Shown: positions 18,497-21,225 of the stretch, one piece after another | Layout of the letters: each line of letters begins with the position of its first letter | Position numbering within the stretch: the stretch's first letter is position 1 | NCBI GenBank assembly: GCA_035623075.1 | Contig: DASPUC010000035.1 | Location: 1-44,069, forward strand | Reading direction: 5' to 3' | Length of the DNA: 44,069 bases | Origin: Nitrospiraceae bacterium | GTDB lineage: Bacteria > Nitrospirota > Nitrospiria > Nitrospirales > Nitrospiraceae | Notes under the pieces: generated by a model | The model's input: only the letters and a program-made list of their open reading frames with translations | Told to the model about the DNA's origin: nothing | Database searches by the model: none | Program-made: the position numbers and the translations under genes

Positions 18497-19177
18497 ATGA
18501 TGACCCATGAGTGGAATCTGCCTGCGCTGATCGATCACACCATACTCCGTCCCGACGCAACGAAACAGGATGTGCTGCGCCTGTGTGGCGAGGCGAAGCA
18601 GTTCGGCTTTCTCGTCGTATTTGTTCCGCCCTGTTATGTGGATGAAGCGGTGACGGCTGTCGCCGGATCGGGGATTCGCGTGGGGATCCCGATCGGATTT
18701 CCTTTAGGCGGACACACAACTCAGAGTAAGGTGGCTGAAGCCATCGAAGCCGTCGCGCGCGGCGCCGGGATTCTGGACATGGTCATCAACGTGAGTCGCC
18801 TGAAGTCGGGCGATCACGACTATGTACGACAAGACATTGCCGAGGTTGTGCGAGCGACGCCCACCGTGGAACACAAGGTGATATTGGAGACGTGCTATCT
18901 CACGGGTCAAGAGAAACGAACGGCTTGTCAGCTTGTCATCGAAGCCGGCGCGGAGTACGTCAAGACGTCGACCGGCTTTGCAGCGGGCGGCGCGACGGTC
19001 GAAGACGTGCGGCTCATGAAGCAGGCCGTGGCCGGTAAGGCGAAAGTGAAAGCGTCCGGTGGAATCAGAGATTGGAAGACGACACTGGCAATGCTCGAAG
19101 CGGGGGCAGATCGCATCGGGACGAGCACGAGTCTGAAGATTCTAGAGGAATGGGCGGCTATACGGCGAAAGGGGTAG
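18497..19177 (+). CDS. deoC: Deoxyribose-phosphate aldolase
   Basis: 226 residues of the class I aldolase DeoC family. DHTILRPDATKQDVLRLC is the N-terminal signature. EHKVILETCYLT follows, then EYVKTSTGFAAGGATVEDV with the Schiff-base lysine (VKTSTG), and VKASGGIRDWKT with the second active-site lysine. It splits 2-deoxyribose-5-phosphate into glyceraldehyde-3-phosphate and acetaldehyde in the cytoplasm. The TAG stop at 19175-19177 is followed in the same frame by the PilZ coding sequence. A DeoB-like gene lies further downstream, as in nucleoside catabolic clusters. Confidence 0.96.
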   Translation: MMTHEWNLPALIDHTILRPDATKQDVLRLCGEAKQFGFLVVFVPPCYVDEAVTAVAGSGIRVGIPIGFPLGGHTTQSKVAEAIEAVARGAGILDMVINVSRLKSGDHDYVRQDIAEVVRATPTVEHKVILETCYLTGQEKRTACQLVIEAGAEYVKTSTGFAAGGATVEDVRLMKQAVAGKAKVKASGGIRDWKTTLAMLEAGADRIGTSTSLKILEEWAAIRRKG

Positions 19178-19180
19178 ACC

Positions 19181-19504
19181 ATCTTTACGATACGGCAAGA
19201 CATCCGGTTTGATGTCAAATGTCCCGTGGCCTGTGTGTTGGAGGAACAGGCTGTTCACGGGACGACGTTCAACCTGTCCCGAGGAGGCTGTGCCATCGAG
19301 TGCGGAATCATGGCCACAGAGGGGGAATCCGTGAGTCTCGAAATCACTGTGCCCGGGCAGCCGACACCCATTTTTGTCGAGCTGGGAAGAATCTCTTGGG
19401 CGACCAGACGTGAATTCGGCGTTGAATTCAAGGTTGTGCCCGGAGACTCGAAGCAACGACTGGATGCATTTCTTATTGATGTGGCGAAGCGGAGTGCCTC
19501 GTAA
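19181..19504 (+). CDS. PilZ-domain protein (start codon uncertain)
   Basis: The frame right after the deoC stop encodes a PilZ domain. TIRQDIRFDVKCPVAC contains the RxxxR c-di-GMP contact, and FNLSRGGCAIECG the (D/N)xSxxG motif. Strands EFGVEFKVV and a closing helix follow. Family members bind cyclic di-GMP and modulate a partner. No ATG, GTG or TTG occurs between the deoC stop and GTG 19226, and starting at 19226 would delete the RxxxR motif. The true start may be a rare codon (ATC 19181, or ATA 19190, both with AAAGGGG upstream), or the domain may be made by read-through of the deoC TAG. A conventional gene caller would use GTG 19226. Confidence 0.65.
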   Translation: MFTIRQDIRFDVKCPVACVLEEQAVHGTTFNLSRGGCAIECGIMATEGESVSLEITVPGQPTPIFVELGRISWATRREFGVEFKVVPGDSKQRLDAFLIDVAKRSAS

Positions 19505-19594: not shown

Positions 19595-20752
19595 ATGATG
19601 AATCGTGTCATTCTTATCGTGATCGACGGGTTCGGAATCGGGGCGATGCCGGACGCAGCCGAGTACGGCGATGAGGGCACCAACACGCTCGTGCATCTCG
19701 CCGAGGCCACAGGCAGCCTGCATCTTCCAACGATGGAGGCGCTAGGGCTCGGCCATATTACCGCGATCCCAGGTGTGCAGGTGATGGCTCAGCCGGAAGG
19801 TTGTTTCGGTCGGCTCGGTTTTCTTTCCAGCGATGTCGATTCGTTGGGAGGACATTGGGAGCTGAACGGCTACATGCATGCCGTTGCCAGTCACACATAC
19901 CCGAAGGGATTTCCCCATTCACTCATCGCCGTCCTGGAACAGGTTAGCGGCCGGAAGCTGCTGGGAAATCGTGTGGCCTCGCCCGGGGAAGTGCTTCAGG
20001 ACTATGGTCAGGATCATCTCGCGTCGGGTTCGCCGATCGTCTGGACCGACGGTCGGCGAACCTGTCACCTTGCCGCTCATGAAACTGTGATGCGTCCCGA
20101 CGCATTGCGTCAACTCTGCCGCGAGGCGAGGAAACTTCTTAGAGAGCCTTGGGGCATCATGCGAGTGGTTGCCCACCCACTCACTGGAGAGAAAGGACAA
20201 GTTCGGTTCAGCCATCAACGGAGGGATTTTGTGATCGAGCCGTCCGGCACGACGATGCTTGATGTGCTCAATCGGGCTGGACAAATCCTGACCGGCGTCG
20301 GCAAGGCCGGTGATCTCTTCAACGGCCGCGGGCTGACGCGTACGATTCCGCAATCTCACTGGGCGACGCTTTTCGAGGACGTCAAGGGGATGTTGAAAAA
20401 TGTCCCTCGCGGCTTGATTTATGTCGGACTGGATGTGCTCGAATCCGATGACGTCGGGTCGGCCGGGGCGCTGCACGATTTTGATCGACAGCTTCCCTCT
20501 CTGCTTGAGCAACTGCGGCCCGGGGACTTGTTCGTCGTGACCGGCGACCATGGGCGCGATCCGAAGAAGGTCCATCAGGGTGCTACGCGGGAATACGTGC
20601 CGCTCCTGATGAGTGGTCCGAAGCTCGTTCAAGGGGTGAATCTTGGCACCAGGTCGACCGCCGCGGATCTCGGTCAAACCATCGTGGAGGCGCTGCGTGG
20701 CGAACCGTTGGCGGAGGGGGACAGTTTTCTGGATGCCTTGCGACCGGGATAA
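19595..20752 (+). CDS. DeoB (phosphopentomutase)-family protein lacking key catalytic residues
   Basis: 385 residues, normal DeoB length and fold of the alkaline-phosphatase superfamily. Supporting segments are ILIVIDGFGIGAMPDA, GGHWELNG, the cap-domain RDFVIEPSGTTMLDVLNRAG with GKAGDLFNGRGLT, VVTGDHGRDP and TREYVPLL. In known phosphopentomutases a threonine just before GHWE is phosphorylated; here that position is Gly85 (DSLGGHWE). The usual YGHR and TDH metal ligands are also absent (DVLESDDVG and HQGATRE instead). Asp11, Asp318 and His319 of one metal site remain. Mutase activity on ribose-phosphates is therefore doubtful. It lies close to deoC and the RidA-family gene. Confidence 0.82.
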   Translation: MMNRVILIVIDGFGIGAMPDAAEYGDEGTNTLVHLAEATGSLHLPTMEALGLGHITAIPGVQVMAQPEGCFGRLGFLSSDVDSLGGHWELNGYMHAVASHTYPKGFPHSLIAVLEQVSGRKLLGNRVASPGEVLQDYGQDHLASGSPIVWTDGRRTCHLAAHETVMRPDALRQLCREARKLLREPWGIMRVVAHPLTGEKGQVRFSHQRRDFVIEPSGTTMLDVLNRAGQILTGVGKAGDLFNGRGLTRTIPQSHWATLFEDVKGMLKNVPRGLIYVGLDVLESDDVGSAGALHDFDRQLPSLLEQLRPGDLFVVTGDHGRDPKKVHQGATREYVPLLMSGPKLVQGVNLGTRSTAADLGQTIVEALRGEPLAEGDSFLDALRPG

Positions 20753-20763
20753 GGTTCAGAACA

Positions 20764-21225
20764 ATGATATCGTATGAAGCCAAACTCAAGACGCTTGGTC
20801 TGCAGCTGCCTTCTCCGCCCCAACCGGTCGCAACCTATGTTCCCGCCGTTCGAGCCGGTGATCTCCTGTTCTTGTCCGGCGTTTTGCCGATGCGGGAGGG
20901 TCAACTGGTATTTTCAGGAAAACTGGGACGGGATCTGACAGTGGAAGAAGGGATGGAGGCGGCCAAACTCTGCGTGCTGAACGCCCTCGCTATCGCGAAG
21001 CAGGAGCTGGGAAGTCTTGATCGCATCAACCGTATCGTCAAGGTCGTCGGTCATGTCGCCTCCGAAGAAGGGTTTGTCCAGCAACCACAGGTGGTGAACG
21101 GAGCGTCGGATCTCTTAGTGGCGGTCTTCGGTGAGGCCGGACGTCATGCGCGAGTAGCGGTTGGGGCGGCGGAGTTACCTCGACGTGCCCCCGTCGAGAT
21201 CGAAGTCATTCTTTCCATTACGTGA
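20764..21225 (+). CDS. RidA (YjgF/UK114)-family protein
   Basis: 153 residues of the chorismate-mutase-like trimeric RidA fold. Segments are SYEAKLKTLGLQLPSPP, LLFLSGVLPMREGQL, ALAIAKQELGSLDRINRIVKVVGHVA and HARVAVGAAELPRRAPVEIEV. The conserved Arg of the imine-binding site appears as HARVAVG, where RidA itself has xRxxV. The longer N-terminus and GLQLP start put it in one of the Rid2-7 groups rather than classical RidA, so deaminase activity on enamines is not assured. It begins 11 bases after the DeoB-like gene and ends four bases into the frame that leads to the TIG gene. Confidence 0.85.
   Translation: MISYEAKLKTLGLQLPSPPQPVATYVPAVRAGDLLFLSGVLPMREGQLVFSGKLGRDLTVEEGMEAAKLCVLNALAIAKQELGSLDRINRIVKVVGHVASEEGFVQQPQVVNGASDLLVAVFGEAGRHARVAVGAAELPRRAPVEIEVILSIT

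Follow-up and report, generated by a model that had tools for sequence, protein, structure and literature searches.

A DeoB orthologue of Nitrospira-type bacteria that lacks metal site 1 and is probably no longer a phosphopentomutase

The stretch of DNA analysed here (44,069 nucleotides of contig DASPUC010000035.1 from a Nitrospiraceae bacterium; hereafter the window) carries, at positions 19595–20752 of the forward strand, an intact open reading frame of 385 amino acids, the length of DeoB, which encodes a DeoB orthologue without metal site 1 (referred to as DeoB*). On the same strand, deoC (18497–19177; TIGR00126, 245 bits) lies upstream and is, by synteny, a conserved neighbour of DeoB* throughout the clade, and a RidA-family gene (20764–21225, forward strand; PF14588 and PF01042) lies downstream and is by synteny a neighbour in most of the family. 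Between deoC and DeoB*, a PilZ open reading frame (19175–19504, forward strand) follows the TAG stop of deoC without a change of frame. To include the whole RQDIR...NLSRGG motif, translation must start upstream of the GTG at 19226, and no in-frame ATG, GTG or TTG was found upstream of that GTG, where two relatives (L033 and L145) have an ATG; this arrangement could come from a rare start codon, from read-through or from a mutated start. A sequence-only reading of the locus had linked DeoB* to all three neighbours. The link to deoC stands (the gene neighbourhood is conserved, often with short intergenic distances) and the RidA-family gene stays nearby, whereas the PilZ gene, which occurs in only some relatives, is rejected as part of a module. 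DeoC accompanies DeoB* and also occurs without any DeoB in three genomes (G161, G286 and G302), of which G161, a small genome, has lost DeoB* and kept deoC.

Profile searches relate DeoB* to the phosphopentomutases (PPMs). The NCBIfam equivalog model NF003766 (‘phosphopentomutase’) matches it at 308.6 bits, above the cut-off of 256, and TIGR01696 at 280.7 bits, below the cut-off of 341.2; the NCBIfam matches are mainly DeoB models, and PF01676 (72 bits) is the sole Pfam match. The best solved relative is the PPM of Bacillus cereus, and a confident AF2 model built from 46 aligned sequences (pLDDT 93.5, pTM 0.91) matches its structure (3m8w) over 382 residues with a Z score of 49.6. The earlier assignment to DeoB, made from the length, the cap domain and the DHGRDP motif, the last of which is present, is thus confirmed by family profile and by fold, and DeoB* is a true DeoB orthologue. 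It is also the only copy: a search of the host genome (G000, 99.9% complete) found no second DeoB, and the idea of a canonical deoB elsewhere in that genome is rejected.

To place the active-site residues, we aligned DeoB* to B. cereus PPM by the residue numbers of the catalytic residues of the latter, and in this register each of D13, D286, H291, D327, H328 and H339 matches the expected amino acid. The residue counts given below compare 78 distinct non-canonical sequences (that is, DeoB*) with 76 canonical DeoBs and, because these sequences come from related genomes, do not represent independent events. With the six catalytic residues in register, B. cereus T85 (that is, the nucleophile and phosphorylation position) is the threonine directly after K-D in KDTMTGHWE and aligns with Ser83 of DeoB* (19841–19843, forward strand), which sits at the N terminus of model helix 83–90 and is a serine in 78/78 clade sequences. 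A deposited chain titled ‘T85Q variant’ (PDB 3un2) reads KDQMTGHWE and differs exactly at the position aligned to Ser83. The sequence-only reading had instead taken Gly85 (19847–19849, forward strand) for the position of the TGHWE phosphothreonine and had concluded that the latter was missing; the residue numbering and the T85Q chain rule this out, and the claim was wrong. Gly85 corresponds to B. cereus T87, a column that holds threonine in 57/76 canonical DeoBs and mostly V, I, S, A or M in the others. The Ser/Thr nucleophile that characterizes the DeoB family is therefore present as Ser83, at a position that equals Ser62 of cofactor-independent phosphoglycerate mutase (S-x-x-G-H). Eight of the 76 canonical DeoBs also have serine rather than threonine here and, as the nearest canonical relatives of the clade are among those with serine (L196, L199, L121 and L205), the T85S change probably preceded the loss of metal site 1.

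The two metal sites differ in their fate. The metal-2 ligands of DeoB are present as Asp11 (D13; 19625–19627, forward strand), kept in 75/78 clade sequences, and as Asp318–His319 (D327–H328; 20546–20551, forward strand), kept in 74/78 and 78/78, respectively; together with Ser83 these four ligands are all intact in 71 of the 78, and several sublineages have lost one by D13G, D13E, D327N or D327S. Metal site 1 of DeoB (D286, H291 and H339) is absent from DeoB*. A shortened loop, GLDVLESDDV (20426–20455, forward strand), replaces the motif VDFDxxYGHRxD, such that D286 aligns with E283 and H291 falls in the deleted stretch, and H339 (of TDH) is replaced by Ala330 (20582–20584, forward strand). 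Across the clade, H291 is deleted in all 78 sequences, D286 is generally replaced and H339 is retained in 20. The earlier statement that the YGHR and TDH ligands, and with them the second metal site, are gone was right, and the alignment extends it to the whole clade, with a single origin on the tree.

The substrate pocket has changed as well. In place of B. cereus Y152, S154, D156 and V158, DeoB* has W150, D152, R154 and T156 (W150 to T156 at 20042–20062, forward strand). The switch is nearly fixed in the clade (Y152W in 77/78, S154D in 77/78 and V158T in 76/78), against Y152, S154 and V158 in 76/76 canonical DeoBs. According to a paper that cites 3M8Z (PMC11641776), ribose-5-phosphate contacts either Thr85, Arg193 and Asp286, or Thr85 and Ser154. 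Other residues persist, namely Arg190 (R193; 20162–20164, forward strand; 78/78), Lys237 (K240; 20303–20305, forward strand; 76/78) and Arg332–Glu333 (R341–E342; 20588–20593, forward strand; 78/78). Ten residues that are invariant in 76/76 canonical sequences are lost or variable in the clade (K83, D84, H89, S154, D156, V158, R208, D286, H291 and H339). Parsimony changes, counted within the DeoB* clade at columns invariant in canonical DeoB plus position 85, number zero at positions 85, 328, 193, 341, 342, 90 and 91 and two each at D13, D327 and K240, as compared with 15 at D286, 11 at H339, 12 at K83, 11 at D156 and 15 at R208. Taken together, these counts show constraint on the metal-2 half along with R193 and K240, freedom to vary in the metal-1 half, and a sugar side that was rebuilt and then fixed.

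Among 295 genomes searched across the phylum, a DeoB homologue is present in nearly all of those in the host family, with scattered homologues elsewhere, and the DeoB* form occurs in named database entries (for example, Nitrospira sp. and Nitrospiraceae bacterium). Within the family, canonical and DeoB* forms share the locus alaS-ruvX-mltG-deoC-..-deoB-ridA-TIG-YCF48-rsmE-dnaJ, and more distant members of the phylum show the order mltG-deoC-deoB. A maximum-likelihood tree requires a single change separating the canonical form from DeoB* (the split has 99% SH-aLRT support) and one further change, leading to two ‘dead’ sequences. The switch to DeoB* has a single origin followed by vertical descent at a conserved locus; paralogy or horizontal transfer as the origin of DeoB* is unsupported, given the synteny shared with canonical relatives and the single change on the tree. 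Stepwise intermediates persist, in that L127 retains H339, K83 and S154, and genus g3 retains H339. In some genera with canonical DeoB, an open reading frame of ~820 amino acids lies between deoC and deoB (L105, L113, L115 and L122) or between mltG and deoB (L121). A Pfam search with the L113 copy gave no match at E 0.01, and by eye one part of the reading frame looks like a nucleotide cyclase domain; given its size and the lack of a Pfam match, the notion that a nucleoside phosphorylase separates deoC and deoB in canonical relatives is rejected. One genome (G299) has two DeoB* copies (L198 and L214), each in its own deoC-deoB* pair, a finding that may reflect a mixed assembly as its contamination is 5%.

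The metabolic surroundings bear on why the old activity may have become dispensable. In the genome that carries the window, PF01048 matches two proteins, MTAP (TIGR01694, 337 bits) and one that is HpnG-like, and the weaker PF00591 protein is TrpD-like; among these families, no ribose-1-phosphate-forming phosphorylase other than MTAP was recognized. Of 147 family genomes, nine (G060, G218, G292, G313, G143, G298, G302, G306 and G311) have a strong match to PunA-type purine nucleoside phosphorylase (E below 1e-100), and their DeoB is canonical or, in G302, was not found. Weaker PunA matches in other family genomes look like MTAP, and no genome with DeoB* among the 147 has a true purine-nucleoside-phosphorylase match. 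This distribution makes the loss of ribose-1-phosphate supply a plausible reason that DeoB was freed; however, six canonical genomes also lack PunA (G236, G305, G304, G301, G300 and G295), so the link is loose and PunA is rejected as a strict correlate of canonical DeoB. In two canonical relatives (L178 and L179), punA and the MTAP gene lie ~3.5 kb apart, on either side of a sugar-kinase-like open reading frame, which suggests a nucleoside-salvage cluster; no such punA turned up in DeoB* genomes. Outside the family, a pyrimidine-nucleoside phosphorylase was confirmed in G032, and other genomes there have open reading frames of the same size. Another mutase may have taken over: the window genome has three proteins of the PGM/PMM family, candidates by family membership.

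Given that one metal site has been lost, the substrate pocket rebuilt and the reactive residue kept, we conclude that DeoB* has ceased to be a phosphopentomutase and probably does a new job under a misleading label, either as a one-metal phosphoester enzyme (its site resembling that found in LtaS or in phosphonate monoester hydrolase (PMH)) or as a phosphate-binding pseudoenzyme. The sequence-only reading had proposed a repurposed phosphatase, phosphodiesterase or binding protein; this class of explanation remains the best, even though its basis in a lost phosphothreonine was mistaken. We give a probability of roughly 45% to the explanation that, as a whole, we consider the best, namely that an ex-mutase DeoB orthologue may have been kept for a new phosphate-related task as a one-metal phosphoester enzyme. 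The sequences show that metal site 1 disappeared a single time, in the clade's ancestor, that the metal-2 ligands, the serine at the nucleophile position and the basic residues R190 and K237 stayed under constraint, and that the sugar-side pocket switched to W/D/T and then became fixed. On the proposed explanation, the resulting protein would have a PPM-like fold that binds one divalent metal at D11/S83/D318/H319, with Ser83 attacking, or accepting a phosphoryl group from, a ligand other than (deoxy)ribose phosphate, and would act as a one-metal phosphoester hydrolase or transferase. In two-metal enzymes, metal 1 helps to form and break the phosphoenzyme, so in DeoB* either another residue would have to substitute or the phosphoserine may be long-lived. 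In favour of a one-metal enzyme is that the metal-2 quartet was selectively retained; against it count the failure to identify any residue in DeoB* that replaces the role of metal 1, and the sublineages considered below, a few of which later lost even the metal-2 site and would have to use the protein without that chemistry. A more specific version seems to us doubtful: a new activity that arose from DeoB, as a one-metal Ser-nucleophile phosphoester enzyme (or a phosphoserine switch in which the absence of metal 1 leaves the phosphate trapped), with a ligand set by W150, D152 and T156, and acting with DeoC in Nitrospira-type bacteria.

The strongest rival, a serious contender that we would nevertheless bet against, is that DeoB* may be a non-catalytic pseudoenzyme in which the PPM fold serves as a binder or regulator (such as a DeoC partner, or a sensor of sugar phosphates or nucleotides) and the metal site is only structural. 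The natural losses of metal ligands favour it, as sublineages without D13 or D327 are still under purifying selection: dN/dS is 0.05–0.14 for comparisons inside the D13G group and inside the D327N group, and for the pair that includes the D327S sequence. Two sequences of the same family (L104 and L212, from genomes G248 and G303) have proline or alanine at the nucleophile position and asparagine at D13, and have lost more besides, yet are still full-length, with 49% identity between the two and 39% between L104 and the DeoB* of the window; they are candidates for clear pseudoenzymes, in which the original catalysis can no longer be the role. A precedent also exists in PbgA/YejM, an alkaline-phosphatase-superfamily domain without typical catalytic residues (PMC7018646). 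What speaks against a pseudoenzyme is that exactly the metal-2 quartet and Ser83 are retained while other active-site residues vary freely.

Returning to a protein kept for a new task, two further alternatives weigh little. A gene on its way out, with its function lost along with nucleoside salvage and slowly decaying, seems improbable: two sequences are frameshifted or truncated (L063 and L044), a 91-amino-acid remnant lies in G105 (C45) and the gene was absent from four family genomes in a first survey, and some of the decay cases may be assembly errors, but open reading frames are full-length in nearly all genomes, new residues have become fixed, and pairwise dN/dS within the clade has a median of 0.114 and a maximum of 0.22. 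These values are in the range of those of neighbouring genes in the same genome pairs (deoC 0.081, ridA 0.078, mltG 0.095 and ruvX 0.160), and the possibility that DeoB* is a pseudogene is rejected. Least credible, and very improbable, is that DeoB* has remained a phosphopentomutase, running on a single metal ion with equivalent residues from elsewhere: the nucleophile and metal-2 site are present and the genome has no other DeoB, but the ten canonical invariants are lost or variable and the genome offers no recognized ribose-1-phosphate-forming phosphorylase except MTAP.

In summary, DeoB* represents a real and clade-wide change, maintained by strong selection, in an orthologue that annotation pipelines would call phosphopentomutase. 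As it scores above the NCBI equivalog cut-off, metabolic models may credit Nitrospira-type bacteria with a salvage step that they probably lack; a search of the accessible literature on Nitrospira DeoB or DeoC found nothing relevant. At a single locus, the clade runs from active mutase, by way of forms without one metal site, to forms in which nearly all catalytic residues are lost, and it provides a good natural experiment on functional change in an enzyme of the alkaline-phosphatase superfamily.

Among known systems, DeoB* is closest to the DeoB phosphopentomutases (B. cereus PPM, 3M8W/3TWZ; Streptococcus mutans, 4N7T), with which it shares fold, length, nucleophile position, metal-2 ligands, R193, K240 and locus, and from which it differs by the absence of metal 1, D156 and R208 and by the change of Y152/S154/V158 to W/D/T. 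Cofactor-independent phosphoglycerate mutase, which needs two metals, has a similar core fold (Z about 22) and the S-x-x-G-H nucleophile motif, but another cap domain and a distant sequence. PbgA/YejM has a periplasmic domain of the same superfamily fold and offers precedent for a non-catalytic role, but is a membrane protein of other ancestry, whereas DeoB* has retained one metal site for the most part. The superfamily has established members with a single metal, PMH and arylsulfatases among them (PMC12421950), and LtaS binds its single metal by Glu, (phospho-)Thr, Asp and His (E263, T307, D481 and H482; PMC4192460), which indicates that a one-metal site of such composition can be active. In the alignment, DeoB* has the corresponding acid, Ser/Thr nucleophile, Asp and His residues, a comparison limited to the composition of a putative site, and it has the superfamily fold; Pfam and NCBIfam profile searches did not place it in LtaS- or PMH-type families, and those single-metal members are membrane-anchored or have a different cap, and act on different substrates.
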